Assembly (NCBI RefSeq): GCF_000516515.1
Contig: NZ_KI911784.1
Coordinates: 3,696,633-3,760,632, forward strand
Direction of reading: 5' to 3'
From: Chloroflexus sp. Y-396-1
GTDB taxonomy: Bacteria; Chloroflexota; Chloroflexia; Chloroflexales; Chloroflexaceae
DNA length: 64,000 nt
Each line of letters starts with the position of its first letter. The stretch's first letter is position 1. The translations under genes and the position numbers were made by a program. The notes under the pieces are model-generated. The model saw only the letters and a list, made by a program, of their open reading frames with translations. It ran no database searches and had not been told where the DNA came from. Positions 28,506-59,927 of this stretch are shown piece after piece.

Positions 28506-28533
28506 ATCGATGTTGAGCAATTGGGGAGGGGTT

Positions 28534-38466: not shown

Positions 38467-40110
38467 TCAATACGGTCGTGAGCGAATCCAGACGATCAAC
38501 CCGCCAATGATGCCGATAAGACTGATACTGACGGCAAGGGCAATACCGATGGTTGATAATCCTCGTAATTCCCAGTTCATTGGTTCTTGCAGCACCGGTG
38601 CATTCCGTATTTCTTCAGGTAATACGACAGGTGTAGGCGTTGGTAATGGCGCTATACCTGCCGCTTTAGTTGGTGCTGGAGGAAGCGGCGTGGGTGTGAA
38701 GAGTGGTATTCCTGGACGCGCTGGCAGGTTGAGTCGGGCAGTGCTATACCAGATCTGATGAATTGGTCGGTCTTGTGGTCGATCACCTTCAAACAGCCGT
38801 GAACGGGTAAACCAGACTGCATGAAGCTGATTTCCGTTGTAGATTGCCAACCGCGGCAATTCGGGATAGAGTTGGTTTTGCATAATAATGCGTGGTGGCA
38901 GCCAGCGGGTGCCGTCAAATACGATGTGAATAAGCGCTGGTGGAGTGTCAGTCGTGGTTGTTGCTGTAAACCCAACCATCAATAGGTGGATATTATTTGC
39001 TCCATCAGCAGCAAGGCTATAATAATCGAGATTGTTGTCGTTAATATCCCGTGCCCGCACGTAAGGTAACTCAACCGCCGGTGTCCAGGTATCGCCGCCA
39101 TCGAGGGAGCGTTGGAAGTACAGCCGATTGTTGTGTACACCACGATAGACTACAAACGGATTTCCCTCGCCATCGACTGTCAATGCCGTTTGTTGGACCG
39201 CTTCGAGGGGTGGCTCGGTTCCTTCGTTCGGGGTTCGTCGGCGTTGTTGTCGTAATACTTGCACAACGGCTGATGGTAAACTGAATCGAACCGGAGCTGT
39301 CCATGTTAGCCCACCATCATCTGAGCGTCGGTAGACACCGTAATGCGGTTGACCCTGACCGGTGTACCAGTCTGCTCCCTCATCCCAGACGAGATGAATC
39401 CGGTTACGGTGATCAACCCGTACCTGTGGTCGATTGTCGCCTAAATCGCTTTGTGAAACAGCAACAACCGGTGACCAGGTAACACCATTATCTGTTGAAC
39501 GTCGGTAGAAAAGGTCTCCACACTGAAAGCACGCAGGGTTATTATTTTCGGTTACCCCGTCACTCCAGAACGCATGCAGGCCGCCGTCGAGATCGGCTGC
39601 TAACGCGACGTAATAACCGCCATCACTGATAGTTCGTGGTTCTGACCACGTGGTTGGTTGCTGGGCTACGTCCCAGGGTGCATGAGCGTAGACAATTCTA
39701 ATCCCTGCCCGGTAGAGAAGATGAAGATTTCCATCACGTCCTAATGTGATGCTAGTTCGCACGGTATATCCTCCGGTGCCTGGCGCCATTAATTCCCTGA
39801 CCGGCTCCCAACTCCCATCCGCATTGCGCCGTCGGTACATGAGCAAATCAATGGTGCCACCTTCGCGCTGCTCAACAATAAGGCCTCCATACCAGACGAC
39901 ATGGACACTTCCATCAGGGCCGAGGGTCATGTCGGGCAACCATGACCAGCCGTACCGACGGTCAAGCTGATCGAGTGGTACCTGGCCGTACTGTGGCGGG
40001 GAGAGTTCAATCGGTTGTGTCCACAATCCTTGCCCACGTGCAGCAGGATCGGCGCTAAAACTGCATGCAATGGCAATTACAACTGCAACGAGGGCGAATC
40101 GCACCTTCAT
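38467..40110 (-). CDS. Secreted BNR/Asp-box propeller protein with C-terminal membrane anchor
   Basis: About 547 residues. A signal peptide (KVRFALVAVVIAIACSF) leads a sialidase-like propeller with Asp-box motifs RSTDNGVTW, RSDDGGLTW and RSLDGGDTW and several HLVW/HVVW strands. Then comes a Pro-Thr linker (TPTPLPPAPTK, LPTPTPVV) and a C-terminal helix (IGIALAVSISLIGIIGGLIVWIRSR), giving a membrane-anchored outward-facing protein. No sialidase Arg triad was assigned, so binding rather than cleavage is equally possible. ATG 40110 overlaps the stop of the polymerase gene (ATGA), so it is translationally coupled to Wzy. Confidence 0.8.
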   Translation of the reverse strand: MKVRFALVAVVIAIACSFSADPAARGQGLWTQPIELSPPQYGQVPLDQLDRRYGWSWLPDMTLGPDGSVHVVWYGGLIVEQREGGTIDLLMYRRRNADGSWEPVRELMAPGTGGYTVRTSITLGRDGNLHLLYRAGIRIVYAHAPWDVAQQPTTWSEPRTISDGGYYVALAADLDGGLHAFWSDGVTENNNPACFQCGDLFYRRSTDNGVTWSPVVAVSQSDLGDNRPQVRVDHRNRIHLVWDEGADWYTGQGQPHYGVYRRSDDGGLTWTAPVRFSLPSAVVQVLRQQRRRTPNEGTEPPLEAVQQTALTVDGEGNPFVVYRGVHNNRLYFQRSLDGGDTWTPAVELPYVRARDINDNNLDYYSLAADGANNIHLLMVGFTATTTTDTPPALIHIVFDGTRWLPPRIIMQNQLYPELPRLAIYNGNQLHAVWFTRSRLFEGDRPQDRPIHQIWYSTARLNLPARPGIPLFTPTPLPPAPTKAAGIAPLPTPTPVVLPEEIRNAPVLQEPMNWELRGLSTIGIALAVSISLIGIIGGLIVWIRSRPY

Positions 40111-41519
40111 GTCTCTGTCTGCCTCTTTATCAGGTGTCGGATGCTGATTAGCAAACCAACGAAGATCCAACTGTACATGGTGTATCTATAGCCAGGTACT
40201 CCCTGGTTGTAGAGAAAAGGTAATACCCAATCACCTAGCATCATCGAGAACTGGGCGGCTGCCCAGCCACTCGTTGCCACAATCGCCGTTGTGCGCAGGA
40301 TACCGACCGGGGCCATCCGAATGGTTTGCCAGCCGTAATATAGGCTTACTATCGCAAGCCAGAGCCAGATTCCTGAGCCCACGACCCCGAATTGAGCTAG
40401 AATATCGAAGTAGTTGTTATGTGTCGAACGGGCATCGTAACGGAAATAGGTCATGTTGTAAGGAGCGTAGCCCCCAACACCGGTACCAAAAAGCCAGTGT
40501 TGCTGTGCCACCCAGAGATTCCGTGCCCAGATGTCGAGTCGATCTAATCCACCCTCTTGAACGTTGTCATTAACAACCTGCTCGATGTAATGTTTGCCCG
40601 GTCCTACTGTTAGATTCATGGCAACCAGGAGCAATAGAATAAAAAAGATACGGCGTGAGGTGAGCAACGCCATGAGCAGTAACCCAACGATCGTTGGTAG
40701 CCAGCCCGAAATCCAGAGTGAGTTCCGCAGGGCTACCAGCCAGATATGCCAAATCAGGATTGTCGTGCCGAACAATCGCCATCCCCAGGGTATACCCGGT
40801 TGCAAATAGATGACGCCGGCTAATGGTAACGCAAACCAGAGACCCCATAACCCCATGTCGGTCAGGATCACGTGATTAATCCCGAAGGTCTGCGCTGCTG
40901 TCATGAGAAAGCCGCATACGATAAACATTCCCAGGTAGGCTCTAATCTGCCACTCGTGTTGGATGAAACGTCCGACTAGTAACGGAATACTTAACAATCC
41001 CAGCAATGAAAGGAGGGAGGCGATCTGAGCCATCCGAAAATTACCCATAATCCACCAGTCAAGGATCGGATCCGCCCAGAGGATGCCCCACGGAACTGAG
41101 AATATACAGATCGCCATCATTGCTAACAGTGGTTTGTTGAGCGGTGACGGCACCAGTTGCCAGGTACGGCGATGGATCATACTCAGAATCCAAATCCCGC
41201 TCAGGGCCAGCGTTAAGAGCATACTGATCGGTAATTCACTCCCGTTGCCGGCTGGAACTGCCAGTGGACGCATTGCCAGCCCGGTGAGGGGCAAGATCAG
41301 CACAAACCACTCAAACCGATACATCAGGAGGGTTAATCCGATGATCCCGAATGGTATGGCCAGGAGGGCTAATCCGATCAGTTGGCGATTAGTACCAAAC
41401 ATGATACCGATCAGCGAGCTGTAGACGAGCAGCCCTCCAAGGATGCCCCCTAACACGAGCGGTCGTGGTAGACGCTCGATCCATGGGGGTGTTTCAATAT
41501 GACGCAAGAACGATTGCAT
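40107..41519 (-). CDS. O-antigen polymerase/ligase-like membrane protein (Wzy/WaaL fold)
   Basis: 470 residues, about 11-12 hydrophobic helices and one large periplasm-side loop with GTGVGGYAPYNMTYF and RSTHNNYFDILAQFGVVG. The HNN in this loop is the hallmark of the Wzy_C/WaaL family. In a cluster with Wzx, Wzz and an initiating transferase it is most likely the polymerase that joins repeat units, though ligase function is possible. The start is 9 nt after the preceding GT2 gene. Confidence 0.8.
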   Translation of the reverse strand: MQSFLRHIETPPWIERLPRPLVLGGILGGLLVYSSLIGIMFGTNRQLIGLALLAIPFGIIGLTLLMYRFEWFVLILPLTGLAMRPLAVPAGNGSELPISMLLTLALSGIWILSMIHRRTWQLVPSPLNKPLLAMMAICIFSVPWGILWADPILDWWIMGNFRMAQIASLLSLLGLLSIPLLVGRFIQHEWQIRAYLGMFIVCGFLMTAAQTFGINHVILTDMGLWGLWFALPLAGVIYLQPGIPWGWRLFGTTILIWHIWLVALRNSLWISGWLPTIVGLLLMALLTSRRIFFILLLLVAMNLTVGPGKHYIEQVVNDNVQEGGLDRLDIWARNLWVAQQHWLFGTGVGGYAPYNMTYFRYDARSTHNNYFDILAQFGVVGSGIWLWLAIVSLYYGWQTIRMAPVGILRTTAIVATSGWAAAQFSMMLGDWVLPFLYNQGVPGYRYTMYSWIFVGLLISIRHLIKRQTET

Positions 41520-45985: not shown

Positions 45986-47431
45986 TCATCGCTGTGTGGT
46001 AAGCAGGTTTCGGACAAACGATAGTTCCTCTGCCCCGATAGCCCGTAGACCGACCAGTAGTCCACCATAGATGATGCCTCCAGACCCAATGACCAGCCAT
46101 ACCGGCCATTCACGTACCAGATAAACAACACTCGTCATCAAGCATACAGCGATGGCGGTACGATACAGAGCCTGCCAGCGCATACGACGCAATTGATCAC
46201 GCAAGAGCCAGATATATTGTCCTGCCAGGACTGCCTCAGTGATGACGGTAATAATTCCTGCGGAGGTTGCTCCGTAACGCGAAGTGAAGATAAGGTTAGC
46301 GATGACATTAACGCCACTGCTGATCATTATCGAACGCGCCACCAACGATTCGCGATCGGCAATCACCACTACATAACCAAGAAATTCGGTCAAAAACATC
46401 AGCGGTAGTGTCCAGATCAGTATCGCCAGTAAGGGAGCAGTTGCCGCGTATTGCTCACCAAAAAGAAAGAGCGTCAGTGGTTCGGCAAGGATAAATCCAC
46501 CAGCGGTTATAGGTAGCGCCACCATCAGGAGGTAGCTCATGATACGTTCGTAGATTTGCGGCAGGTGCATTGGGTCTATTTTGGACTGACGCGATAACGA
46601 GGGATAGAGGGCAGTATTCAGGACGTTCGAGAGAGTGACCAATGAGAAGATTAGGTTATACGCTGCGTTGTAGTAACCGGTTTCGCTGTCACCGAAGCTG
46701 ATATTGAGGACGACCGTATCAAACCGATACGAAAGCCCTAATGTCAGACCAATTACTCCAAACGGAAAAGCCGCTCGCAGCAGATGCAGCCAGCGCTCGC
46801 GTTGCCAGCGTCCTGGTTTTGCCCCCAGTCGCCACAAGGCTCGCACCACCAGCCCGGTCATCACTGCCACGCCAATCATTGTCGCGACGATCAGACCGTA
46901 GTAACCTAGTCCCAACCATAGCGCCAGTCCGCCTAGCGTCACGAAGATCAGTTGATTCACCACCTGTATTCCGGCGGTCACATCGAGCCGTTCGTAGCCG
47001 GCCAGAACAGCTTCACTACTACCGTGTACGGCATATATGAGCAATGTTAACCCATTGAGGGCAATAGCGCCGATCATCAGCAGCGGTCGTGCGGTGATGA
47101 TTGCTGCGCTGACGACCAACACACCGGCAATGAGCGCCAGCACGAGACGTAGGCCAAGCACATCAGCATAGAGGTCGCGGATTTTTTCCAGATTATGCGG
47201 CTCGCTACGCAGACGGGCTACTTCGCGCACTGTGTATGGTGCCAGCCCAAGATCGGCGATAAAGAGAAAGACGCTCCCGAAGCCAATGACGGCTGCGTAT
47301 TGACCAAAGTCACTGGCGCCAAGTTGTCGCACAATGAAGATCGAAAAACAAAACGAGAGGAGTTTGATCGCTACCTGCGCGATCATGCCGACGACTGAGT
47401 TGCGAAGGATTGTTCCAGCAAGTTGACTCAT
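45986..47431 (-). CDS. Polysaccharide flippase (Wzx/MATE-like)
   Basis: 481 residues with about 14 hydrophobic helices and the N-terminal NSVVGMIAQVAIKLLSF ... RQLGASDFGQYAAVIGF pattern common to Wzx/RfbX proteins of the MOP superfamily. It would carry undecaprenyl-linked repeat units outward. It is 6 nt after the upstream GT4 gene, placed between glycosyltransferases as in other Wzy-type clusters. Confidence 0.88.
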   Translation of the reverse strand: MSQLAGTILRNSVVGMIAQVAIKLLSFCFSIFIVRQLGASDFGQYAAVIGFGSVFLFIADLGLAPYTVREVARLRSEPHNLEKIRDLYADVLGLRLVLALIAGVLVVSAAIITARPLLMIGAIALNGLTLLIYAVHGSSEAVLAGYERLDVTAGIQVVNQLIFVTLGGLALWLGLGYYGLIVATMIGVAVMTGLVVRALWRLGAKPGRWQRERWLHLLRAAFPFGVIGLTLGLSYRFDTVVLNISFGDSETGYYNAAYNLIFSLVTLSNVLNTALYPSLSRQSKIDPMHLPQIYERIMSYLLMVALPITAGGFILAEPLTLFLFGEQYAATAPLLAILIWTLPLMFLTEFLGYVVVIADRESLVARSIMISSGVNVIANLIFTSRYGATSAGIITVITEAVLAGQYIWLLRDQLRRMRWQALYRTAIAVCLMTSVVYLVREWPVWLVIGSGGIIYGGLLVGLRAIGAEELSFVRNLLTTQR

Positions 47432-47437
47432 GTTCCA

Positions 47438-48517
47438 TCACTTCAATGTCGGATGTTCGACCATCCAGCGTGTTAACTCTTCAACTCGATCAAGCCAACG
47501 GTCAATTGTGAAGGACTCTTCCATCAGTCGGCGTCCAGCCTTTCCCATCTGTTCAGCCCGGTCTGGATCGTCCCACAAGCTGGCAATTGCTGTTGCCAGC
47601 TCCTCAACATTTCCTGGTTCGACCAGCAGTGCAGTTTCGCCCTCGATCACGTATTCAGCTAACCCTGGTCGGCGGGTAGCAATCACCGGTCGGCCCATCG
47701 CCTGTGCGATTTGCACTGATGTGCATCCGGCGCTCCATTGCGTACTGGCACGAATAGGCACCACCACGATGCGACTCTGGAGGTAGCAGAGGCGCAGGTG
47801 ATCTGGGGGAACAAATGGTTGCAGGCTAACATTAGCCGGCAATATGTCACGTTTGAGAACATTAGAGCCACTCACCCAACTGCTACCAATCCGGAGATGG
47901 CAGGGAATATGCGGGAGCTGGCTCATTGCCCGAATGAAGGTTTCGTAATCGCGGTGTGATACGCCTAAACTCTGGACGACAGTGGCTTTCTGAGTGCTTA
48001 TGGTTGGGCAGAAGAAGTCGGTGTCAACCGGTGTGTGCAGGGCTACGACTCGATCGCTCGCTAAGCCGAGTTCGCTCTGCATACCGTTAGCTTCGGCTTG
48101 ACTGATCGCTGCCACAATGTCCCACCGTTGTTGTAATCTCAGAGCTAATATCAATCGTAGTTTCTGCCTCGACATCCCGTGATGAAAGATCACGAGGTGA
48201 CGTATTCTTGGTGGTAGCACGAGGGCCAGTGGAATACCTACCCGCTCCGAGAGACTGATAACAACCTGATAATCTCTACATCGTACTAGTTGCGCTACCT
48301 GCAATGCTAACCGCAGATCTAACCGTATCAGCGATTCAAGATAGTGTAAGGGCCGATGAGGTCGTACTAGGCCATAATCGACATAACAACTCTTGAATCT
48401 GCTGGCAAGTTCAAGGTAATCGACCCGCTGATGGGTACCAGCCTGAACCGCTGCTTCTAGCCCCGGTACTGATGTGCTGGTTGCCACTACCAGAGTACGT
48501 GGTACAGGTGTTTGCAT
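47438..48517 (-). CDS. GT4-like glycosyltransferase
   Basis: About 359 residues. The fold is GT-B: VVISLSERVGIPLAL, VIFHHGMSRQKLRL, VALHTPVDTDFF, VVVPIRASTQWSAGCTSVQIAQAMGRPVIATRRPG and EGETALLVEPGNVEELA. The Ser-Ala-Gly-Cys in the donor site replaces the usual EGxP pattern, so specificity may differ. ATG 48517 is chosen; an in-frame GTG five codons upstream is possible. It is the first gene of the left part of the minus-strand run, after a 406-bp spacer. Confidence 0.78.
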   Translation of the reverse strand: MQTPVPRTLVVATSTSVPGLEAAVQAGTHQRVDYLELASRFKSCYVDYGLVRPHRPLHYLESLIRLDLRLALQVAQLVRCRDYQVVISLSERVGIPLALVLPPRIRHLVIFHHGMSRQKLRLILALRLQQRWDIVAAISQAEANGMQSELGLASDRVVALHTPVDTDFFCPTISTQKATVVQSLGVSHRDYETFIRAMSQLPHIPCHLRIGSSWVSGSNVLKRDILPANVSLQPFVPPDHLRLCYLQSRIVVVPIRASTQWSAGCTSVQIAQAMGRPVIATRRPGLAEYVIEGETALLVEPGNVEELATAIASLWDDPDRAEQMGKAGRRLMEESFTIDRWLDRVEELTRWMVEHPTLK

Positions 48518-48923
48518 AAGCCACTCTATCACGAAAGGCTGACAGTCTCTTAAACAGCGTATCGTAGCTAGATGAAACCATCTTCATTCTTGCTAGATGC
48601 TGGATTAAGGTCGTATCTGAACATTGCGTTTCTGACGGCTGCCTGTTGCCACACCTCCTTCCTCTCGTTCTCGGTCATTCACGCCGGGGTTAGGAGAATG
48701 ACGCTACTCACCGAGCATTCCCATCACTGTACCCAGAGGGATGAGTTCTGCTGCGGTGTGTAATACGTTCTATGACTCTCGTAAAAATGCGAACCAGAGG
48801 CTTGCGTCTCCAGAGCACAGGAACTTTGTTTTCAGACACGTTCTAGCTGCGTGTTCCAAGAAGGGGCGCCGACGCTCGCCTTGCCCCCTTCTACCTCCGG
48901 CAAAGGCCTCTTCACCCATACGG
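48518..48923. other. Intergenic spacer between two minus-strand gene groups
   Basis: About 400 bp. Near its right end is a GC-rich hairpin likely to end the upstream group. GCTAGATG occurs twice near 48569-48600. No convincing ORF, RNA gene or promoter pair was recognised, though a promoter for the GT4-wzx group is expected. Confidence 0.45.
48859..48892 (-). terminator. Hairpin downstream of the HGSNAT-like gene
   Basis: Perfect 8-bp arms AGAAGGGG (48859-48866) and CCCCTTCT (48885-48892) with an 18-nt GC-rich loop, 32 nt after the stop of the minus-strand gene. No T-tract follows. It may separate the two minus-strand transcripts. Confidence 0.45.
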
Positions 48924-50090
48924 TTAGAGATAACGCAACACCTGCGGATACCGCTTGCGTTGCCGCCGATACCAGAAACCGAGCGGGATCAGTATGATCA
49001 ACCCACTTACCCAGGCAAGATACCCCCAAATGATACGTGGTCCGTAGAGTGGAAACTGATTCATGACCAGAGCGATAAAATGGTAGACGATAATATGTGT
49101 CACATAGAAGAAGAGCGAGACCTGCCCAACCATTGGGAGCCAGCGCAAAGAGCCGCTGGACAAGATGTTTGGTCTGGCATAGGCCGCTGCCAGGATGAAT
49201 GCGGCGATCCCAAGATTGAAGGCAAAGTAGCTCAGACTGGGTGGTGCTTTGCTCATTACCAGAATATGGGCTGGTGTACTGCCAATGGTACCAAATGATC
49301 CCAGATCACCGAAGCCGCCAATGATGCGCAAGATGCACCAACAAATCAGGAGACCTGCTCCAATCTGTAGCCAACGTTGTGGTTGCTGTAGAGAGGTTTG
49401 GTGATGATGGTAACCAACGGCGTACCCCAGCCAGAGCAGTGGCCCCCAGCCCAGCACGGCAAAGCCAATTGCTGGTTGGGTCTCGTAGCTGTAGGTAAGC
49501 CAGAATGCTTGCCAGAACGGTTGTGGCGTATTGTTCATCAATTCAGGGGCCAGCCCTCCGATCCAAAGTTGATGCAGCAAGAGGGTGATCACTGCCGCGA
49601 TCCCGATCTGTTGTGACGTTAAGAATTGGCGCAGACCAGCGAGCACGATCATTGCAGCGGCTATGCTGGTGAGGACGTGCACATACGGCGTGGCGCCCCG
49701 CCAAAACCAGGCGCAGATCGTGAGATCAAGGATCAGAATAACCAATGCCCGAATTAGGATAAAGCGGGTTGTATCCTGTACTGGTCGACCACGACGGTGC
49801 TGAGCGGCGGCATACAATGCCAGGCTATACCCGCCCAGCCAGAAGAAGATAGGTGAAGCCAGATTGGTTAGTAGTCCACTCAGCCAGTACGCAGGACTTT
49901 GTAATGTCACCATCTGACCACCGTATGACTCGGCCTGCAAACCTGCTCCGATGAAGAATGCACTGTGATCAAGCGCCATCAAGATCAGCGCAACGCCTCG
50001 TAATGTGTCAATCGCAACGATCCGCTCGCTGCTGGCGTGCTGGTCAACCACAGTGGGGCGGGCTTCAGTCGTTATGCTTACAGTGCGCAT
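48924..50090 (-). CDS. HGSNAT-like (DUF1624-type) membrane acyltransferase
   Basis: 388 residues with about ten hydrophobic helices. The N-terminus SSERIVAIDTLRGVALILMALDHSAFF is the signature of the heparan-alpha-glucosaminide N-acetyltransferase catalytic family, with the DHS histidine as the probable active site. Such proteins move an acetyl group from cytosolic acetyl-CoA across the membrane onto a sugar amine. A target in the exported polysaccharide is likely, particularly after a deacetylase. It is 80 bp after the spermidine-synthase-like gene. Confidence 0.8.
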   Translation of the reverse strand: MRTVSITTEARPTVVDQHASSERIVAIDTLRGVALILMALDHSAFFIGAGLQAESYGGQMVTLQSPAYWLSGLLTNLASPIFFWLGGYSLALYAAAQHRRGRPVQDTTRFILIRALVILILDLTICAWFWRGATPYVHVLTSIAAAMIVLAGLRQFLTSQQIGIAAVITLLLHQLWIGGLAPELMNNTPQPFWQAFWLTYSYETQPAIGFAVLGWGPLLWLGYAVGYHHHQTSLQQPQRWLQIGAGLLICWCILRIIGGFGDLGSFGTIGSTPAHILVMSKAPPSLSYFAFNLGIAAFILAAAYARPNILSSGSLRWLPMVGQVSLFFYVTHIIVYHFIALVMNQFPLYGPRIIWGYLAWVSGLIILIPLGFWYRRQRKRYPQVLRYL

Positions 50091-50170
50091 GTGCTCTCTC
50101 CTTCAGCATGTTTACCGCTGCGATAATGGCACTGGTACTGTCGTGGATGTGATTTGTTTGTCGCACAGTG

Positions 50171-52648
50171 CTATGACAATGGTGTCTGGATCGATGTCTT
50201 GCTGAGCTTGATCGGTGTAACAACCGTCTCACCTTGAACAGCTACCTGCCAAAGTGCCTTTCCAACTAGAGCTGCTCCGCTGTATCCAGCCGCTCCCCAA
50301 AGCATCGCAACAGTGAAAGTACTGCTCATACTGATGATGATGACCAAGACAGACCCCAATACCGAAAAGACGCCATTCATGCCCCATGCCCAGACCACCA
50401 ACTCTGGTGCTCGGGCACCAAGCTGGCGTAAGCCGGTAGGGAAGGGGATGCCCATCAGGGTAGCAAGTGGCGCAATGATAAGCATACTGACGACAATTCG
50501 CGCCGGGTCTGACCAATGCATCCAGGCGCTAAATAGTCGTGGAAGCGCAACGATGTAGATTACCGTTAGGAAGGCGATACTGATGAGTATCAGCCGTAAG
50601 GCACCAACACTCCGGATGTGCTTGCTGATGATCAGACTGCCAATTGCAGCAAAGGCCAACATACTGGCAATGGTTGTGGTCGTCGCATGGATTGGATAGC
50701 CGATGAAGAGGGTAAACCGCTGGATCAGCACAATTTGAATAAACATATAGGCAGCACCTAGCAGGCTAAAATAAGTCAGGGTCGGCAAAGAGCCGGGTAG
50801 GCGTATCCCATCGCGCTGATAGCGGACTAAGGGAGCAATGATGAAGACGAACGCCGCACCGACAGCCAGGAGCGCCATGGTCAGTAAGATCAGATTACCA
50901 ATCGGAAAGCGATTCAGCCGCCCTTCATACGCCCTATCAAAGTGTAGGTTTTCCCAACGGAAATAGTTATAGAAAAAAGGATTATCGTCAGTTACTGGGA
51001 AAATCTGGAACATGTAGGCCTGTTCAAAGGCTCGCGGATCGCTCGCATAGAGATAATCGGCAAAGGGTGTGTTCAGTCGCTCAAAGGGATCATGCAGCAG
51101 GGTGAAGTTGTTTTCAGCCCCCCACCGGCGCAATTGTTGAATCTGTTCTGACCGGAACGGTGTTCGGCTAACCAGTAGGGTTGCATTGACACCGCGTTCA
51201 TTAGCAATGATTGTAATGTGAGCTGCCGGATCACGCACTCCCATGCGACGGAGTGCTTCGGCGGCCAATCCCGTCAGGCGTAGCATCTCGCGAGGTGGAT
51301 TGTTGACATCGCGCGTCCACGAGAAGATACCGTTTGGAGTAAGGGCGCTAATTGCCTGTTCGAGGGCTTCAACCGTGTAGAGGTATGACTCGGCCAACAC
51401 ATACGCTCCTCCTGACAAGGCCGCTAGGTTGTCAAGCCCAATGCCTTGGATAACGTCATACTGCTCGGTCGTGCGACTGAGGAAACTACGGCCTTCGGCA
51501 ATGATGAGTTCTGTTGAAGGATGCTCGGCCAGTCTTCCGGTGTAATCGGCGTAGCGTCCCTTTAAGAGCTGAACAATGGTTGGGTTTAGTTCAATGGCCG
51601 TGATCTGCGAGGCTTTGTAGAAACGGGCCAGGAGAATGTCAAGCCCACCGCCAACCCCAATGAGTAGTGTTCGTGGATGTTTCTTAGCGACGTGGTAGGC
51701 TGCACTGATAATCGCGTGATCGAAGAAGCGAAATCGTTCAAGATCGGTATCACTCCCATCAAACTGGTACATCCCGGTCATCGAGCTGCCGTCAATCGTA
51801 ACCAGTTTCAGCGGTAGGGCTGCACGAGATTCCACACCATAGCTTGAACTGACTGCTCCTACGATCATCGGCTCAGTAACGATAATTTCTGGCATGACAT
51901 CAACCCGACCTACAGCATCCCAACGGGTAAATTCGGGTCCAGTTTGCTGAGCTTGCATAGCCCAACCCAGTTCCTTTGAGCTTGGTACTGCCAGCGTTGG
52001 CGGAAAGATAACCATCACGCCGAGCAGAACGGTTTCGCCAATGATGGTTATTGCCGCTAGCCAGCGTTGCCAGCCGCGCACTTCGTGGTCGAGCAATAGT
52101 GCCGATACTGCGCCGATAAGCCCGATTAATGCAATGATTGCCGGTCCGCCGATAAGCTGTATTACCTGTAACACGGTGATTGTGGCTACGCCCGCTCCCA
52201 GCAGGTCGGCAAAGTAGAGCCGGTGTGAAGCGCCAGCCCAACGCCCAAAGATCGCTGCGATAACCAAACCACCGCTAAAGAAGGTGCTGAACAGATAGAT
52301 AAAATAGATACTAAGTCCAGCAATTACCCAACCGATTTGGGCGGCGCGTAGCGGGTCAATTGCAATCGTATTGATAGCGACCAGGTTACTCAAACTGGTG
52401 AAACTGAATAAGAGCGCTAGCTGACCTAACCGTTGCTGAAGTTTGGTCGGTCCCCAGCGCCGCACGGCAAGGAATGTACCGGCTGCGCCGCCACCCAGCA
52501 ACGCAATACCGATCACCATGTAGGTGAAGTGGTGCCAGATCATCAACGAGAAGATACGGGTGAAGGTGATCTGGAGGGCAAGAATACTACCGCTGATAAT
52601 GGTTAGGCCGAGATATTTACTAATCGATTGCTGAAATGGAATGGTCAT
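50171..52648 (-). CDS. Spermidine-synthase-like membrane protein (SpeE domain between membrane domains)
   Basis: 825 residues: an N-terminal block of about seven helices (GLTIISGSILALQITFTRIF onward), a central SAM-methyltransferase-like SpeE domain with LLIGVGGGLDILLARF, AIELNP, EGRSFL and YDVIQGIGLDNLA, and a C-terminal block of about six helices. The family is widespread and its reaction is not established; the usual aminopropyltransferase DxxD residues were not confirmed here. In this place it lies between a Tat-exported deacetylase-like protein and an HGSNAT-like acyltransferase, suggesting work on the same surface polymer. Confidence 0.8.
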   Translation of the reverse strand: MTIPFQQSISKYLGLTIISGSILALQITFTRIFSLMIWHHFTYMVIGIALLGGGAAGTFLAVRRWGPTKLQQRLGQLALLFSFTSLSNLVAINTIAIDPLRAAQIGWVIAGLSIYFIYLFSTFFSGGLVIAAIFGRWAGASHRLYFADLLGAGVATITVLQVIQLIGGPAIIALIGLIGAVSALLLDHEVRGWQRWLAAITIIGETVLLGVMVIFPPTLAVPSSKELGWAMQAQQTGPEFTRWDAVGRVDVMPEIIVTEPMIVGAVSSSYGVESRAALPLKLVTIDGSSMTGMYQFDGSDTDLERFRFFDHAIISAAYHVAKKHPRTLLIGVGGGLDILLARFYKASQITAIELNPTIVQLLKGRYADYTGRLAEHPSTELIIAEGRSFLSRTTEQYDVIQGIGLDNLAALSGGAYVLAESYLYTVEALEQAISALTPNGIFSWTRDVNNPPREMLRLTGLAAEALRRMGVRDPAAHITIIANERGVNATLLVSRTPFRSEQIQQLRRWGAENNFTLLHDPFERLNTPFADYLYASDPRAFEQAYMFQIFPVTDDNPFFYNYFRWENLHFDRAYEGRLNRFPIGNLILLTMALLAVGAAFVFIIAPLVRYQRDGIRLPGSLPTLTYFSLLGAAYMFIQIVLIQRFTLFIGYPIHATTTTIASMLAFAAIGSLIISKHIRSVGALRLILISIAFLTVIYIVALPRLFSAWMHWSDPARIVVSMLIIAPLATLMGIPFPTGLRQLGARAPELVVWAWGMNGVFSVLGSVLVIIISMSSTFTVAMLWGAAGYSGAALVGKALWQVAVQGETVVTPIKLSKTSIQTPLS

Positions 52649-52673
52649 ACCATTACTCTCTTTGTTTGCAGTG

Positions 52674-54626
52674 TTATAACGAGGCGTAATCGGCGATCAT
52701 CTGTTGTTGACCGCCACGGAGCCTGAGCACCCGATAGGTTTTGCCGGCGATCTGACGTTGCTGTAGTGGAATACGCTCAGTGTTGAGATGAATCGTTCGT
52801 AAATGTGTTTTGCGGTGTGTTTCAGGGACAAGCAGCGTTAGCGAGAGTCGTGATGGAGGAGCGCTGATGGTCGTAGTGAGTCGTTGACCATTCCAGTTCA
52901 CATCGAACAAATCACTTGCCTGGCGGGCATCAATAAAGTTAAGCCAGCGTTCGGCAGTCATGATCGGTAGACCCATCCCGGCCGCATAGCCAAGCGTCTG
53001 ATCAAGCCAGCGAGCTACCTCTTGGGCGATTGGGCCACCGATCAGAAAGGGATCGACGTGGCACTGGAGACCTAGCGCAGCCGGATAGCGATCAATACTG
53101 GCTGCAATCTGAGCTATGCTCTGGATAGCCGCACGTGCTCCGTCGAGACCAACGTCGAAACCGGTTTGAAATACCGGCATCAGGTGTTCATCAACCAGAT
53201 GCGTTGCCTGCTGATACACATCGATGACCGTCCCATCGTCGCTCACAAAGCGGAGTGGCAGGCCGCTGCCATTCAGATAGCCCATGGTCCACGTTCCATC
53301 AGGTTTACGCACAGCCGGGCCACTATGGTAGTGGTCGAGGTTCATACGAATACCGTATGCTGCCTGCACAATCGCATTGTCTACCCAGCCGTGCCAGAGA
53401 ATGCGATGGGTACGTACTGTTGGGGGTAGTGGGCCATAGCCGAGTTTAATAAACTCACACCAATGTTGGTAATAACCGGCCTCCAGCCCCGCTTCTACGT
53501 AAGGATGCATCCCGAATTCATGACCACGATCCCGCCATTCACGCACGTGATGTGGTCCTGGCAATGGATCATCGCCAGCGATAGCTGCCCCGATCAGCGG
53601 TGTTCGGCTTAGTGTCCAGCGTAGTTTGCGCGTTAGCCGACCGGCAGTATTTGCTGGTGGCGGTGTGTAATAGATCGATGCTAGGCCAGCATGGCGTTCG
53701 ATAATGCTCAACCACTGCTCAATATGGCTCACTCGACTACCGTGGGCATCGCCGGTAGCAATAATCGCACTGGCGGCGTTATCGGGGAAGTACCATAGCC
53801 GGGGTATCGGCATTGGACTTACTTCATCGATCATTCGACTCAGCAGACGCTGGTGTTCATCGGCCTGCGGAATAGCAATCCGTTCCAGATCGATCCAGTC
53901 CACAAAGAGATCACTTGCGCGCAACCCTTCCATCAGGTCGCGTTCCTGGTTTATCCATACCGGATTGCCTTGTCGGATGAGCGCAATCGTTTGCGCCAGA
54001 TCAAATGTCCATAATGCAGCTCTGCCGGCGCCGAATTGGTGAATCGTCACCAATGGATCGCCGTAGCTACTGCTTGCCACAGGTTCTGCGCTGCGTAGAC
54101 GTACCCGGTCGTATACCGTGTGTAGTTGGAGGGGGCCAGCGATCCCGGTTGAGGGCAAAGGATAGAGCGAGTCGTCGCGCTGCACCACTCCCGAATAGGC
54201 AACACCGAACATCTCGGCCAATGCTGGATCGGGACGGATACCGATCAGGCCACCACCGCTACGAACGAATTGGTATAACCATTCCACACTCTCTTTCGGC
54301 AGTGGAGCCGAACCAACGATAATCACTGCACCATTGATGTCGCTGTTAATCTGCCGCAGACTGATTTGACGCAGACCAAAAAAACCTTCCGCCCGTAAGA
54401 TTTCAGCGAGGTATGCAGTAAAATCCGGCTGTGGCGCCCGATCTTGTGCCAGCAACAATGGTGCAAAACCACGCGCTTGAGGTAGTGGAGGAGCTTTTAT
54501 GTTGGTCGTAGGCGCCGACAACGGCCACTGTTCAATGCCAAAAGCCACCATTCCACCTAACCCGGTAGCGGCCAGCATACCGGATAGAAATGCTCGTCGT
54601 GTTATCGGTCGCTGTACGTAGTGCAT
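52674..54626 (-). CDS. Tat-exported polysaccharide deacetylase-like protein
   Basis: 650 residues. A twin-arginine signal (PITRRAFLSGMLAATGLGG, Arg10-Arg11) starts the protein. Residues of about 50-270 look like a glutamine-amidotransferase-like/trimerisation domain (GGLIGIRPDPALAEMFG). The second half resembles NodB deacetylases: IIATGDAHGSRVSHIEQW, EFGMHPYVEAGL and LQCHVDPFLIGG carry candidate metal ligands, though the motif order differs from classical CE4. C-terminal 70 residues are beta-rich. It may trim acetyl groups from exported glycan. It lies 10 nt after the Wzz-like gene. Confidence 0.75.
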   Translation of the reverse strand: MHYVQRPITRRAFLSGMLAATGLGGMVAFGIEQWPLSAPTTNIKAPPLPQARGFAPLLLAQDRAPQPDFTAYLAEILRAEGFFGLRQISLRQINSDINGAVIIVGSAPLPKESVEWLYQFVRSGGGLIGIRPDPALAEMFGVAYSGVVQRDDSLYPLPSTGIAGPLQLHTVYDRVRLRSAEPVASSSYGDPLVTIHQFGAGRAALWTFDLAQTIALIRQGNPVWINQERDLMEGLRASDLFVDWIDLERIAIPQADEHQRLLSRMIDEVSPMPIPRLWYFPDNAASAIIATGDAHGSRVSHIEQWLSIIERHAGLASIYYTPPPANTAGRLTRKLRWTLSRTPLIGAAIAGDDPLPGPHHVREWRDRGHEFGMHPYVEAGLEAGYYQHWCEFIKLGYGPLPPTVRTHRILWHGWVDNAIVQAAYGIRMNLDHYHSGPAVRKPDGTWTMGYLNGSGLPLRFVSDDGTVIDVYQQATHLVDEHLMPVFQTGFDVGLDGARAAIQSIAQIAASIDRYPAALGLQCHVDPFLIGGPIAQEVARWLDQTLGYAAGMGLPIMTAERWLNFIDARQASDLFDVNWNGQRLTTTISAPPSRLSLTLLVPETHRKTHLRTIHLNTERIPLQQRQIAGKTYRVLRLRGGQQQMIADYASL

Positions 54627-54636
54627 GGAATGACAC

Positions 54637-56571
54637 TCATCCTCGTCGCCGACGGCTAATCATTGAACGACGTCGCGGCGGCCGTCTGGCCGGTGCTGAT
54701 CGGCGTTCGTCTTGCTGATGATCGATTATGAGTGGTGGTTCACCAACCGCCCGTTCATAACCCGCTTCGGTGGCAATAGGTGGTGCGGTAACAATTGGTT
54801 GGCTGCTATCGGCTGGCGGGGTGATAATGACTCTGGGTGTTCTTATCTCTGCTTCAGGCGGAGAATATCGTTTATCAGTATCATCACGATGAGGGCCGGG
54901 CGTAGTCGCCGAGCGCGCTGGCCGAGGTTCATTATCCGTTCGTGTAGCGTCTCTTGCCTGATTGCCCTTTCCAGGATTCAGCAACCGTAACGGCCCTACG
55001 CTAAGGAGGTGGTGTAAACTGTTGAGCGGCAAGCGCGGTCGTTCGGGTTTTCCTGATAGGGTAGATGTATCAGCCAGCATAACTGCCCCTAGCACACTGT
55101 CGGATCGCTTCAACTTCAACCGCTTCAAGCTTTGTTGAATATCCCGACTGCTGTCTTCGATGGGTTTTAGGGCCAGGACAACGCCATCAACCGTTGGGGC
55201 CAGCAAGGCGGCCTCTACTCCACTGAGCGTTGATGGGCCATCAAAGATCAAAATGTCGGCGGCTCGTTGCAGACCATCGACTAGAGCTGGCCATGGCTGC
55301 GAAGGGGGTAGGGGACGGCCATCTTCGTCAGTATTACGGGCCAGCAGTAACACGTTTTTCAAGGGTGTGATTCGTAAACTTGACCAGACCTGCGCTTCAC
55401 CATCAATCGTAATCGGTTGTAGCACTGCATCTGGATTAGAGAACAGTTCACTGAGGATCGCCCTTTCAGTTTCTGCGTCGACCAACAGTACCCGATACCC
55501 CGCCAGGGTGTAACAATGAGCCAGATCAACGACCAGCGCACTCCGTTCGTCTGAAGGACGTGGCCCGCTGACCATCAGAATCCGGGCATTACGGGGAAGT
55601 CCGGCCAGAACGATCTGGGTGTACGCCTCTTTGACGGCTTGCAGACGCTGTCTGGCTTCTTCTTCGTTGAGTTCGATCAGTGGCCGCTTCCCCGGTACAG
55701 TACCGAGAAAGTTCAGCCCAAAGCGGCTCCGCAGGTCATTATGATTACGCCAGCGGGTATCGATAATTTCCAGGCCAAAAGCAGCTATTATTCCTAACAA
55801 TAATCCACTCAGGGCGGCAATAGCGACGGTCAGATTTCGTTTGTTTGGTAATGGTGAAGTTGGTACTTTCGCTGCCTCGAAGATTGCCAGACTACTAATC
55901 AGACTGGTATTCTGTAACCGTAGCAACTGCGCGTAGGTATTTTGTGCTGTATCACGCGCCAGCTCCAACTCTTGGAGACGATTACGCGCTTCGCGGAGAT
56001 CGGTGGCACTGGTTGCCTGAGCTAACATTGCTCGTGCCTGTTCAATCTGGCGATCAAGGTGATCTATTTCAGCCTGTGATCGTGCAATCTGTTCGTTAAG
56101 CAGATTACGCTGTTCTGCCACTTTTTCCGGCGAGTTTGGGCCAAAACGAATTAATTCCTCGGCAACTGCGTTAGCAATTGCTGCTGCCCGCTGGGGATTG
56201 GTGTCAGTGATCGTGATGTCAAGGAGACTGGCTTGCCGATTGACGCTGGTCGTCAGCATGTACGTGCTAATCACTTGCCACGGGAATGGCAGCTTGAGTT
56301 GTTCGACAACCGGCGCCAGAATGACCTCACGGCGCGCCATTTCAGCATAAAAACCGGCAACAGTAGTGCTTAAGCCAAACGTCTGGGGATCAGGTATGGC
56401 AGCGAGGGACTCGCCCACCCGCAATGTCACCCGACTCACATAGTAATCAGGTTGACGAAGAGTAAAGATCAGTGCCGCTCCGCCGGCTGTAGCCGCTGCT
56501 AGGCATACTACCCACCACCAGCGCAACACGATGCGGAGGTAAGACCATATATCGCTCCAGGTGAGCATCAT
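54637..56571 (-). CDS. Wzz/BY-kinase-like polysaccharide co-polymerase with degenerate P-loop
   Basis: 644 residues: TM1 (about 20-38), Wzz domain with coiled coil (150-225), PNK-type segment SPLPNKRNLTV and TM2 (249-268), then a cytoplasmic CpsD-like domain. The Walker A position reads VSGPRPSDERSALVV (334-348) and lacks the GKS/T lysine, whereas Walker A' VLLVDAE (361-367) and Walker B ILIFDGPS (440-447) are retained. The C-terminus has no tyrosine cluster and ends in a Pro/Arg-rich tail (RRPPRRRSMISRRRRG). It is therefore expected to regulate chain length without tyrosine kinase activity. GGAG lies 5 nt upstream of ATG. Confidence 0.82.
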   Translation of the reverse strand: MMLTWSDIWSYLRIVLRWWWVVCLAAATAGGAALIFTLRQPDYYVSRVTLRVGESLAAIPDPQTFGLSTTVAGFYAEMARREVILAPVVEQLKLPFPWQVISTYMLTTSVNRQASLLDITITDTNPQRAAAIANAVAEELIRFGPNSPEKVAEQRNLLNEQIARSQAEIDHLDRQIEQARAMLAQATSATDLREARNRLQELELARDTAQNTYAQLLRLQNTSLISSLAIFEAAKVPTSPLPNKRNLTVAIAALSGLLLGIIAAFGLEIIDTRWRNHNDLRSRFGLNFLGTVPGKRPLIELNEEEARQRLQAVKEAYTQIVLAGLPRNARILMVSGPRPSDERSALVVDLAHCYTLAGYRVLLVDAETERAILSELFSNPDAVLQPITIDGEAQVWSSLRITPLKNVLLLARNTDEDGRPLPPSQPWPALVDGLQRAADILIFDGPSTLSGVEAALLAPTVDGVVLALKPIEDSSRDIQQSLKRLKLKRSDSVLGAVMLADTSTLSGKPERPRLPLNSLHHLLSVGPLRLLNPGKGNQARDATRTDNEPRPARSATTPGPHRDDTDKRYSPPEAEIRTPRVIITPPADSSQPIVTAPPIATEAGYERAVGEPPLIIDHQQDERRSAPARRPPRRRSMISRRRRG

Positions 56572-56583
56572 GTAAGCTCCTTA

Positions 56584-58146
56584 CTATTGCGCAGGCAAAA
56601 TCACGAGATCACCTGCTTCCAGCCCGCTCAAAATTTCAACCTTACCATCAACAACCAAACCGGTTTGAACTTCTACCCGCTGCGGGCCGTTGTCACCCGG
56701 CACTAAGACATAGATCCCGCCATCACGACGAATTGCCTCGACGGGTAACCAGCGCACGTTTTCGCGTTGGCCGAAATCAATGGTAACCAATGCCGGATCA
56801 CCAACTGCTAATGGAATGTCACGGGCATTGTAGATGATATGGAGTTCTGGTGTTGGAAGGGTGGACATGCCGGTAGGTTTGCGTACCACGCCCTGAAATG
56901 TGCGACCAGGATAACGGACAAAAGAGATTTCAACCGGCGTTCTATCAGGAATACGCTCGAGATCGGAGCTATTTATCGAGTTGACGGTGATCTGTAAGCC
57001 TGAATTGTCCATCAACCGAATGACCGGCGTTTCAGCTTGCACAGGCAGGCCGACCAGAGCATCAATGGCCGTCACTGAACCATCGAAGGGCGCATAAATC
57101 CGGCGGGCTTCGATCTGCTGCTCGATCTCTTTGATCCTGAGTTCTGAAGCCGCCAGACTCTTCACCAGCGCAGGATCGGGAGTTGTGCGCTGCCGGGCAG
57201 CATCGAGTTGAATCTGCGCCTGTTCCACTGCACGCTGTGCAGCAATGACGTCAAACTGATTTGGCCCGCTGAGAAGCCGCTCAAGACGGGCACGGGCCAG
57301 TTCGACATCGGCTTCCGCAGCCTGCACTGCCGCAATTTCATTCCCCCGCGCCGTATCTAGTTCGATTTGAGCCAGCGCCACCGCACTTTCTGCGGCTTGC
57401 AGCTCAACCGCAAGCCGGTCAACGAGTGCACGTACTTCTGGCGTATCTTCTATCTCTAGTCGAGCGCGGGCTTCGCCGTAGGCGGCTTGCACACGTTGCA
57501 ATGCTGCTACTCGGTCGGCAAGTGCCCGTTCAGCGCGGGTCTTTACGGCTGAAGCGTCATTGCGCGTGCGAGCCAGCGCCGACTCAGCGCGCTGTAATGC
57601 AGCTCGTGCCTCGGCAATGTCGCTTGCCGAAGCAGGAGTCGTGAGTTGTGCCAGTCGGTCACGAGCCGCAGCCAGTGCTACTTCGGCTGCCCGAACGTCA
57701 ATCTGCGCACGGGCGATAACTTGCTCAATCATTCGTCGATCTTGATCGGCATTGATCTGCGCCTGACGTAGCTGATGTTCAAGTGTGCCCAAATCGATTT
57801 CGGCTAAGAGTTGCCCGACCTTTACTTGCGCCCCTACTTCGACGTACAGGTTGCGCAAAATACCACTCTCACGAAACGCCAGACCACGTTCAAGAATTGG
57901 CGTGACCTGACCACTAAACTCACGCCGGTCGTGAAAGGTTCCCAGCGCAACGGCAACGGTCTTTTGTACCGGTACTGTCGTTGTTGCCGTTGGTGCGATT
58001 GCTACCACAGTCGGTTCCGGTGTTGGTGGTGGTGTCCAGGGTTCAGGTGTCGGTGCGCCAACCAGCGCACTGATACTACAACTACTTAGACCGAATGCAA
58101 TACCCAAGATTAGGATCATGGGCCAGACAAGTCTTCGGTGTCCCAT
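56584..58146 (-). CDS. HlyD/MFP-family adaptor lipoprotein
   Basis: 520 residues. An N-terminal lipobox (GLSSC, Cys23) is followed by a Pro-Thr stretch and a barrel-sandwich half (VEVGAQVKVGQLLAEIDLG), a long alpha-helical hairpin (about 130-330, rich in Ala/Glu/Arg), the second half (IYAPFDGSVTAIDALVGLPV) and beta-barrel domains ending ILSGLEAGDLVILPAQ. Such adaptors join an inner-membrane pump to an exit duct. No ABC or RND partner is in the window, and the gene is 12 nt before the Wzz-like gene, so a role in polysaccharide export is plausible. Confidence 0.82.
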   Translation of the reverse strand: MGHRRLVWPMILILGIAFGLSSCSISALVGAPTPEPWTPPPTPEPTVVAIAPTATTTVPVQKTVAVALGTFHDRREFSGQVTPILERGLAFRESGILRNLYVEVGAQVKVGQLLAEIDLGTLEHQLRQAQINADQDRRMIEQVIARAQIDVRAAEVALAAARDRLAQLTTPASASDIAEARAALQRAESALARTRNDASAVKTRAERALADRVAALQRVQAAYGEARARLEIEDTPEVRALVDRLAVELQAAESAVALAQIELDTARGNEIAAVQAAEADVELARARLERLLSGPNQFDVIAAQRAVEQAQIQLDAARQRTTPDPALVKSLAASELRIKEIEQQIEARRIYAPFDGSVTAIDALVGLPVQAETPVIRLMDNSGLQITVNSINSSDLERIPDRTPVEISFVRYPGRTFQGVVRKPTGMSTLPTPELHIIYNARDIPLAVGDPALVTIDFGQRENVRWLPVEAIRRDGGIYVLVPGDNGPQRVEVQTGLVVDGKVEILSGLEAGDLVILPAQ

Positions 58147-58158: not shown

Positions 58159-58761
58159 CTAATGTGTCACTGCCAACGCACCGGTCAATGGTACGCTGAC
58201 AGCCGGTACTTGCACTGCCTCTTGCCTCAGAATCCATCTACTGGCGGCCAGCAGATCATCGGCGATGTACGTAGGCTGAAACCGCCGCAGTTCAGTCTTC
58301 TGCAATTCAGCAGTACCACGGCCACTCTTGACCAGAATCGTCTGACATCCCATCTGTTGGCCGGCAGCAATATCGGTGAGGGCATCCCCGATGAGGAAGG
58401 TCTCTCGGCAATCGATCCGGTATTGCCTGGCGATCTCCTCGATCATCCCTGGTTGCGGTTTCCGGCAATGACAACGCTCTTCGGGGGTGTGGGGACAATA
58501 GCGGATGTCTTCGATATGTGCACCGTGGTTATATGCAACAGCACGCAATCGGGCGTGAACGTCTTCCAATGCATCTAGGCTCATCAGACCTCGCCCAACT
58601 GCTGCCTGGTTGGTAATGATAAAGATACGAAACCCAGCGTTTGTCAACAGACGCAACGCCGTCAGTGCGCCAGGCAAAAATTGAAATTCCGCCCAGCTCT
58701 TAACGTGGTCTGCCCGGTTGTAATTGATCACTCCATCGCGGTCGAGAAATACAGCGCGCAT
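58159..58761 (-). CDS. gmhB: D-glycero-D-manno-heptose-1,7-bisphosphate 7-phosphatase
   Basis: 200 residues, HAD superfamily. MRAVFLDRDGVINY has the two catalytic Asp residues, FIITNQAAVGRG is motif II, and CPHTPEERCHCRKPQPGM contains the Cys/His zinc site specific to GmhB. FLIGDALTDIAAGQQMG is motif IV. It removes the 7-phosphate from heptose 1,7-bisphosphate made by HddA. GGAGGGG is 3 nt before ATG 58761; the longer frame to 58857 adds an unrelated leader. It is the first gene of the long minus-strand run, divergent from hddA. Confidence 0.9.
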   Translation of the reverse strand: MRAVFLDRDGVINYNRADHVKSWAEFQFLPGALTALRLLTNAGFRIFIITNQAAVGRGLMSLDALEDVHARLRAVAYNHGAHIEDIRYCPHTPEERCHCRKPQPGMIEEIARQYRIDCRETFLIGDALTDIAAGQQMGCQTILVKSGRGTAELQKTELRRFQPTYIADDLLAASRWILRQEAVQVPAVSVPLTGALAVTH

Positions 58762-58858
58762 AAGCCCCTCCCCCTGGCGCTGCCCTGATGGCGTAAGCGG
58801 ATAATGACGATAGTGACATAGGTACAGTACACGTTGTTGCTGACGATATGCTAACAAA

Positions 58859-58895: not shown

Positions 58896-58940
58896 TGCTA
58901 ATGTGCGTGCATGCAAAGGATGAAGTTGAAGGGGGAAGGT

Positions 58941-59927
58941 ATGATTATCTCACGCACGCCTTTACGAGTCAGTTTTGTTGGCGGTGGTAGTGATTTACCG
59001 GCGTACTACCGTCATGAGCCAGGCGCAGTTGTCAGCACTGCTATTAACAAGTATATCTACATTACGGTGAACGAGAAGTTTGATCGGCAGATTCGGGCCA
59101 GTTATTCGGTAACAGAAATTGTCGAGCGGGTTGATGATCTCAAGCACCAACTTATTCGTGAGGCGTTACGGCTGGTTGGCCGAACACACTCCATCGAGAT
59201 TACTTCAATCTCTGATATTCCCTCGCAAGGTACCGGTCTAGGTTCATCGAGTACCTATACCGTTGGCCTGTTGAATGCGCTCTATGCCTTCGTTGGCCGT
59301 TTCGCCGGCGCCGAACGGTTGGCACGAGAGGCGTGTTACATCGAAATCGAACGTTGTGGTGCTCCTATCGGTAAGCAGGATCAGTATATTGCAGCGTTTG
59401 GTGGTTTTCAGTTTATTCAGTTTAATCCTGATGAGACGGTGTTTGTCGATCCGATCATCTGTCGGAGCGAGACGAAACGATTGTTGCAGCAACGCTTACT
59501 GATGTTGTATACCGGTGCCACCCGTAAAGCCGATGATGTGTTGCGTGAACAGCGGGAGAATACTGAACGCGATGCGTCGCGTCGTCGTCATTTGCGCCGT
59601 ATGGTAGAGCTGGCTCACGATCTCCGCATTGCCCTGCATCACGATAATCTTGATGCGTTCGGCGAGATTTTACACGAGGGCTGGATGCGCAAACGCGAAT
59701 TGGCCAGCAGCATCTCTAATTCCCAGATTGATGATTGGTATGAGCGAGCCCGTGCTGCTGGCGCTATTGGCGGTAAAATCTTGGGTGCTGGTGGTGGTGG
59801 CTTCTTACTCCTCTATGCGCCCGAAGAACGCCACCAGGCGATCCGCGCCGTGTTGCCGGAATTGCGCCACGTGCCGATTCAGTTTGAACCGCAAGGCAGT
59901 AAAATTATCTATGTTGAAGAGCGGTAG
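58941..59927 (+). CDS. hddA: D-glycero-D-manno-heptose 7-phosphate kinase (GHMP family)
   Basis: About 328 residues. RTPLRVSFVGGGSDLPAYY (motif 1), GTGLGSSSTYTVGLLNAL (ATP loop, motif 2) and GGKILGAGGGGFLLLY (motif 3) mark a GHMP kinase, and the N-terminal GGGSDLPAYY is typical of HddA-type heptose kinases. It phosphorylates D-glycero-D-manno-heptose 7-phosphate at C1. ATG 58941 is preferred to the ATG at 58911 since GGGGGAAGG immediately precedes it. With gmhA (28534) and gmhB it covers three steps toward GDP-heptose. A second paralogue starts at 63880. Confidence 0.85.
   Translation: MIISRTPLRVSFVGGGSDLPAYYRHEPGAVVSTAINKYIYITVNEKFDRQIRASYSVTEIVERVDDLKHQLIREALRLVGRTHSIEITSISDIPSQGTGLGSSSTYTVGLLNALYAFVGRFAGAERLAREACYIEIERCGAPIGKQDQYIAAFGGFQFIQFNPDETVFVDPIICRSETKRLLQQRLLMLYTGATRKADDVLREQRENTERDASRRRHLRRMVELAHDLRIALHHDNLDAFGEILHEGWMRKRELASSISNSQIDDWYERARAAGAIGGKILGAGGGGFLLLYAPEERHQAIRAVLPELRHVPIQFEPQGSKIIYVEER

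Follow-up and report, generated by a model that had tools for sequence, protein, structure and literature searches.

A block of five minus-strand genes in the genome of Chloroflexus sp. Y-396-1 (complete, 4.89 Mb) is, on balance, probably the extracytoplasmic modification section of a Chloroflexales surface polysaccharide locus of the Wzx/Wzy type. The block lies in a stretch of 64,000 nucleotides (contig NZ_KI911784.1, positions 3,696,633 to 3,760,632 of the forward strand), which was analyzed as a whole and is called the window below. We named its genes ACYL, SPEE, DAC, WZZ and HLYD; a sixth co-directional gene, HAD, encoding a GmhB-like protein, lies 12 bp upstream of HLYD, so that the run comprises six genes (Table 1). 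The original prediction had described five minus-strand genes with short gaps, and the open reading frames (ORFs) were found exactly there, separated by 80, 25, 10 and 12 bp. Our reading draws on how the genes are ordered and inherited together, on the TmAT motifs found in ACYL, on the NodB fold of DAC and its GATase-like domain, on WZZ being a pseudokinase, on the split among HLYD relatives, and on the MFS fold and lost SpeE residues of SPEE. In the proposed mechanism, Wzx would flip the glycan and a Wzy-like protein would polymerise it, while WZZ would set the chain length and HLYD would act as an outer-leaflet helper; the Tat-exported DAC would hydrolyse N-acetyl groups on hexosamine, ACYL would move acyl groups from cytosolic acyl-CoA through the membrane onto the glycan, and SPEE, with its domain outside, would perform or supply a further extracytoplasmic modification. 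The latter would most likely be methylation via exported S-adenosylmethionine (SAM), the least certain step of the scheme. A literature search on the Chloroflexales locus, on fused MFS/spermidine synthase proteins and on Chloroflexus cell-wall sugars returned nothing specific, and no earlier account of such a glycan modification section was found in the literature searched.

The surroundings of the block agree with the surface-glycan setting that had been proposed for it. The window encodes a flippase, a polymerase, a polysaccharide co-polymerase (PCP) and an initiating polyprenyl glycosylphosphotransferase (PGT), which together make up the set of a Wzx/Wzy-dependent locus, as well as a UDP-GlcNAc 2-epimerase, a DegT aminotransferase, a UDP-GlcNAc 3-dehydrogenase-like oxidoreductase and hexapeptide acyltransferases. 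Given these amino-sugar and Wzx/Wzy/PGT genes around it, the block lies within a surface glycan locus, the product of which is probably an amino-sugar polymer, the sugar itself being deduced from the genes.

Conservation was assessed by ortholog counts in 150 genomes of the class and by synteny in orthologous loci from 20 genomes and from named genomes; Chloroflexus islandicus, other Chloroflexus MAGs, Candidatus Chloroploca and Roseiflexus are among the near relatives. DAC-SPEE-ACYL is a conserved core whose order is kept in Chloroflexaceae and Roseiflexaceae. Orthologs of SPEE, DAC and ACYL were present in 20, 23 and 25 genomes, respectively, and their occurrence was nested, the SPEE genomes falling within the DAC genomes and these within the ACYL genomes; within the family and with the genus excluded, the overlaps had P values of about 2e-5 and 7e-7, calculated with the tree ignored. 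In all 20 loci scored for both genes, DAC is the immediate upstream neighbour of SPEE and has the same orientation; this adjacency persists even where protein identity has fallen to 42-59%, much further than chance would allow. The order across Chloroflexaceae is HAD-(HLYD)-WZZ-...-DAC-SPEE-ACYL-GT4-WZX, and the Roseiflexus loci show the same order with additional glycan genes inserted. HLYD and WZZ share the run with the core in Chloroflexus and Chloroploca; in Roseiflexus, HLYD is several genes distant from the block and WZZ, often set apart from the core, is upstream of DAC with 3-4 kb of other glycan genes between. As a separate observation, a gene for a B12-binding radical SAM protein (HpnJ-like, below cutoff; window 19814-21568) is 82-84% conserved in the same loci, and in Roseiflexus its counterpart is placed between SPEE and ACYL.

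SPEE, the middle gene of the core, encodes a large membrane protein of which the label 'SpeE-like' describes a part. The whole protein scored 22.6 bits against PF01564, just under the cutoff of 22.9, while a genome search scored a stretch of it at 25.9, over the cutoff; against the spermidine synthase equivalog TIGR00417 it reached 24.7 bits (cutoff 249.6), and profile similarity to the SpeE structures 3o4f and 1uir was also found. Ile403 replaces the catalytic Asp of the DxTD motif and Gly334 replaces the Asp of GGGDG, and position 403 is never Asp across 23 family members. AdoMet decarboxylase (PF02675) was not found in the genome by a profile that was positive in 8 of 14 controls. A polyamine enzyme or spermidine synthase is ruled out by the loss of the two diagnostic Asp residues together with the missing AdoMet decarboxylase, and with it the tie to polyamine metabolism that would have counted against the original prediction. 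If this holds, 'spermidine synthase' annotations of such large membrane proteins are wrong. The closest described likeness is SpeE2 of the Pseudomonas ISS locus, the function of which was not known in the source paper and which likewise combines membrane segments with a SpeE-like domain lacking the spermidine-synthase catalytic residues (PMC7298707); SPEE differs from it in having MFS segments to either side, in the residues that are substituted and in its glycan-locus setting. The genome encodes one more membrane protein with similarity to SpeE (L112:8107-9828), in which seven helices precede a C-terminal SpeE-like domain and a second membrane half is absent.

Hydropathy analysis of SPEE showed seven plus seven helices, with about 371 residues between them as the central domain. 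In the AlphaFold2 (AF2) model, the membrane part aligned with the MFS protein 6zgs (Z 30.1, 338 aligned residues, 3.1 A, model range 7-801), with 12 core helices in two halves. Lys plus Arg counts were 17-23 for the even loops and 3-4 for the odd loops in 13 orthologs, and five distant homologs were alike. None of these 18 proteins has a Cys in the central domain, and most of them have Cys in the membrane part; in the wider set of 23 family members, six have a single central-domain Cys. Together, the positive-inside counts, the canonical N-in/C-in topology of the MFS and the absence of Cys indicate that the SpeE-like domain is outside, and the three lines agree in predicting an extracytoplasmic central domain. 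Quite possibly, SPEE transports or flips another substrate in the manner of MFS proteins (a glycan precursor, lipid or metabolite), in which case the SpeE-like domain would serve non-catalytic binding, gating or scaffolding; the strong MFS fold and the lost catalytic residues fit this alternative, as does a SAM glycine loop that is degenerate in part of the wider MFS-SpeE family while D286, R387, E420, R446 and D554 (and also R457 and P557) are still invariant across the 23 members. Set against it, the Chloroflexales SPEE orthologs all keep the SAM-type loop (GxGxG) and the acidic residue for the ribose, and the gene neighbours of the relatives described below point to SAM. A membrane-anchored SAM enzyme facing the cytosol (methyltransferase or aminopropyltransferase) would explain the similarity to 3o4f and 1uir and the retained loop and acidic residue, but is improbable in view of the predicted topology, the lack of Cys, the two lost Asp residues and the absence of AdoMet decarboxylase.

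The preferred role of SPEE in methylation comes from distantly related MFS-SpeE genes elsewhere in Chloroflexota, where a gene for a protein-isoaspartate methyltransferase (PIMT) was close by in 14 of 32 loci. These PIMTs scored >200 bits against PF01135 in the six tested, and most carry lipoprotein or membrane signals. When the PIMTs closest to one such lipoprotein were collected, each of the first 22 had an MFS-SpeE gene no more than about 350 bp away; the next eight by similarity were not near MFS-SpeE, one of which, on a short contig, may also be secreted. PIMT requires SAM, and for a secreted PIMT the SAM would therefore have to be outside the membrane; no dedicated supply route is known to us for extracytoplasmic SAM-dependent methylation, which would be an uncommon kind of chemistry for that side of the membrane. 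We tentatively propose, by analogy, that MFS-SpeE proteins could be SAM exporters serving methylation outside the membrane, through the paired lipoprotein PIMT in one clade and through their own SpeE-like domain acting on surface glycan in Chloroflexales, as a methyl counterpart of the transmembrane acyltransferases. If true, this gives a defined set of genes in which extracytoplasmic SAM-dependent methylation can be tested. In most PIMT-paired members the SAM-type glycine loop is missing, and the unpaired ones, including the glycan-locus orthologs, retain it; the corresponding Fisher P of 1.5e-5 is discounted because the paired members form one deep clade and represent one event rather than independent ones. 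No clear PIMT was found in the genome carrying the window. The pairs of a secreted or lipoprotein PIMT with MFS-SpeE come from Chloroflexota outside Chloroflexales.

ACYL had been called HGSNAT-like, and 'AT3/TmAT' is the preferable name. Its Pfam matches, Acyl_transf_3, HGSNAT_cat and OpgC_C, all belong to the TmAT superfamily, whose enzymes take acyl groups from acyl-CoA in the cytosol and pass them to acceptors on the extracytoplasmic side. The motifs of the superfamily are DxxR in transmembrane helix (TMH) 1, in the AT3 type DxxRx10H, FxxxxG in TMH2, an Arg in TMH3 and SxxxY in TMH9 (PMC12423673). By its sequence, ACYL carries the full set, as D28xxR31-x10-H42, F82xxxxG87, R109/R114 and S325xxxY329, and these residues are invariant in 10 orthologs, S325 nearly so. 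It shares the motifs with the AT3 enzymes OafB and OacB and with HGSNAT, and differs from them in having no fused SGNH or beta-HGSNAT domain. The acceptor would be the locus glycan. The original prediction went further and saw in the five genes a dedicated machine that exports the glycan and swaps its N-acyl groups. Its modification pair is indeed there, since a hydrolase with NodB fold and Tat signal and a suitable transmembrane acyltransferase lie together as co-inherited neighbours via SPEE, with HLYD and WZZ in the same run in two genera, and N-acyl swapping by DAC and ACYL may be possible. The machine as a whole is doubtful: the locus Wzx flippase, Wzy-like polymerase and PGT are the simpler assignment for export, and AT3 enzymes are known chiefly for O-acylation of sugars (PMC7448272). 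Moreover, DAC is present without ACYL in Anaerolineae glycan loci, and this, together with the separable HLYD and WZZ and the absence of SPEE from three genomes, shows that the five genes are a section of the locus and not an obligate, self-contained unit.

DAC had been termed a deacetylase; no Pfam or NCBIfam deacetylase family matched the DAC proteins, and the support for the term comes from the fold. Sequence-level comparison with solved deacetylases gave no match to the catalytic part, only the N-terminal domain being found, and none to Agd3. The AF2 model of DAC has a pLDDT of 88 and a pTM of 0.89. Foldseek alone mostly matched accessory domains of glycosidases to the N-terminal domain; re-alignment with VIA recovered NodB-fold deacetylases and Agd3. 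The N-terminal domain aligned with 7bob_C (Z 17.8, 185 aligned residues, 2.7 A) and with the GATase1-like 3rht (Z 15.2), and the NodB-like domain with 3qbu (Z 16.0, 229 aligned, 2.9 A). The fungal galactosaminogalactan deacetylase Agd3 (CE18/CBM87; 6nwz_A) aligned over residues 53-650 (Z 15.0, 475 aligned) with a root-mean-square deviation of 10.3, which indicates that the placement of the domains differs; their order is the same, with a GATase1-like domain, a NodB-like barrel and a C-terminal beta domain. An N-terminal alpha/beta domain preceding a deacetylase barrel is common to DAC, Agd3, PelA (CE21) and human NDST1, and Agd3/PelA-type enzymes share with DAC a place in glycan biosynthesis and equivalents of the conserved Arg (R405) and the catalytic-acid His (H523). 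The active-site motifs of DAC are TGDxH, GHEFGxHPYVE, TVRTHR and H523, with D293, H374, R405 and H523 invariant. In the Chloroflexales orthologs, Arg-Arg at positions 10-11 is invariant, and this twin-Arg signal indicates Tat export. Judged from the modelled fold, DAC is a probable polysaccharide de-N-acetylase, which would add a group with an altered metal site to the Agd3/PelA-like deacetylases.

Several observations weigh against the proposed role of the block. The first motif of DAC is T291-G-D293-A-H295, i.e., Asp-x-His where Agd3 has Asp-Asp, and TGDxH is found in nearly all relatives; the second is H374-P-Y-V-E378, in which the second ligand of HxxxH is Glu or Asp, again in nearly all relatives. 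With metal-site motifs unlike those of Agd3, DAC was not filed under CE18, and the variant site leaves the predicted de-N-acetylation not assured. The variant triad and the allantoinase 3cl6 among the fold matches would suit another NodB-fold amidohydrolase, comparable to the PuuE allantoinase of the same fold; we consider this unlikely, since DAC lies in glycan loci in Chloroflexia and in most of its Anaerolineae loci and has the Agd3-like domain arrangement and the four invariant residues. For SPEE, the AF2 model has a mean pLDDT of only 62, with most of the central domain <50 and too poor for a fold search; the gene is absent from three genomes that retain DAC and ACYL; and it falls in a different clade from the PIMT-paired members, with no PIMT gene beside it, which makes the methylation reading one by analogy. 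More generally, the functions assigned to the block are read from sequence, fold and predicted topology.

WZZ and HLYD had been named correctly as a Wzz pseudokinase and a HlyD lipoprotein. The GNVR and BY-kinase profiles match WZZ below their cutoffs, and its predicted layout, a Wzz/GNVR extracytoplasmic region with a BY-kinase-like domain, is that of Wzc/Wzz co-polymerases. Unlike in Wzc, the Walker A Lys and Ser/Thr of the GK(S/T) motif are replaced, in all orthologs by an SxPxPSExRSA-type motif in which R343 is invariant and S344 and A345 are nearly so. As this replacement is common to all orthologs, the pseudokinase state is long-standing and not a recent loss. Wzc also differs in having a Wza partner. 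Chloroflexales are reported to be single-membraned. Poly_export/Wza (PF02563) was not found in the genome, as expected for a monoderm, and Chloroflexi have been described as lacking bamA and the lpx genes (PMC5826079).

HLYD scored 128.3 bits against TIGR01730 (RND_mfp; cutoff 94.9) and has the lipobox LSSC; it shares family and lipoprotein form with the MacA-like membrane fusion proteins of FtsX/ABC exporters. Among the contexts of 30 HLYD relatives, 11 were beside ABC genes and 14 in glycan/Wzz settings, with no overlap between these groups; the remaining five were not assigned to either. The ABC-linked relatives are mostly next to FtsX and two ATPases, whereas the 14 glycan-locus relatives have no ABC genes within 6 kb. 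In the window block, no ABC or RND partner was seen near HLYD; MacB-like genes are present elsewhere in the genome. The tree splits ABC-linked and glycan-linked relatives with support of 100/99, the exceptions being unassigned members on both sides and one ABC-flanked member inside the glycan side. HLYD belongs to a glycan-locus clade that left its ABC exporter, so that these single-membrane bacteria have a group of membrane-fusion proteins linked to polysaccharide loci and not to ABC export, and it would act as a helper alongside WZZ. In ten loci, a HlyD relative shares a compact operon with two ABC ATPases and a large protein resembling FtsX, an arrangement that seems to be ancestral or sister to that of the glycan-locus HlyD.

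Table 1. Genes and domains of the block and of its surroundings (window coordinates).
Feature	Coordinates	Strand	Basis
PGT: polyprenyl glycosylphosphotransferase, initiating enzyme	31611..33089	+	TIGR03025 411 bits (cutoff 295.6)
Wzy/O-antigen-ligase-like polymerase	40107..41519	-	Wzy_C 36.6 bits (cutoff 31.7)
Wzx-type flippase	45986..47431	-	Polysacc_synt 92 bits; position conserved
GT4 glycosyltransferase, conserved downstream of ACYL	47438..48532	-	profile match, synteny
ACYL: TmAT/AT3-type transmembrane acyltransferase	48924..50090	-	Pfam Acyl_transf_3, HGSNAT_cat, OpgC_C; TmAT motifs
SPEE: MFS-fold 14-TMH protein with inserted SpeE-like domain	50171..52648	-	profiles, hydropathy, AF2 model
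SPEE central SpeE-like domain (residues ~215-585), predicted extracytoplasmic	50894..52006	-	positive-inside counts, Cys scarcity
DAC: Tat-signal NodB-fold hydrolase, variant metal site	52674..54626	-	AF2 model, fold alignment, motifs
DAC NodB-like catalytic domain (residues ~283-570)	52917..53780	-	VIA alignment, motifs
DAC N-terminal GATase1-like alpha/beta domain (residues ~44-275), analogous to Agd3 CBM87	53802..54497	-	VIA alignment
WZZ: PCP (Wzz/GNVR) protein, degenerate BY-kinase domain	54637..56571	-	profiles below cutoffs, Walker A replaced
HLYD: membrane-fusion lipoprotein (RND_mfp), glycan-locus clade	56584..58146	-	TIGR01730, lipobox LSSC, tree
HAD: heptose bisphosphate phosphatase, GmhB-like, at the head of the run	58159..58857	-	NF006506 190 bits (cutoff 178)
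GHMP kinase (HddA-like), divergent neighbour, kept in relatives	58911..59927	+	profile matches, synteny

HAD is conserved upstream of WZZ/HLYD in relatives, and its true start is likely near 58761. The heptose genes of the GmhB-like HAD and the HddA-like kinase share one locus with a GmhA-like gene (28492-29142), which suggests that a surface glycan contains heptose in a bacterium considered to lack lipopolysaccharide. A promoter scan gave fewer matches than expected from shuffled sequence and was not used. Between the HddA-like gene and the gene of a DNRLRE protein, a GC-rich tandem array occupies 60464-61619, with a 63-bp unit repeated 8.9 times (91% match) and an overlapping 201-bp unit repeated 3.3 times; the long ORFs in this interval are spurious because of the array.

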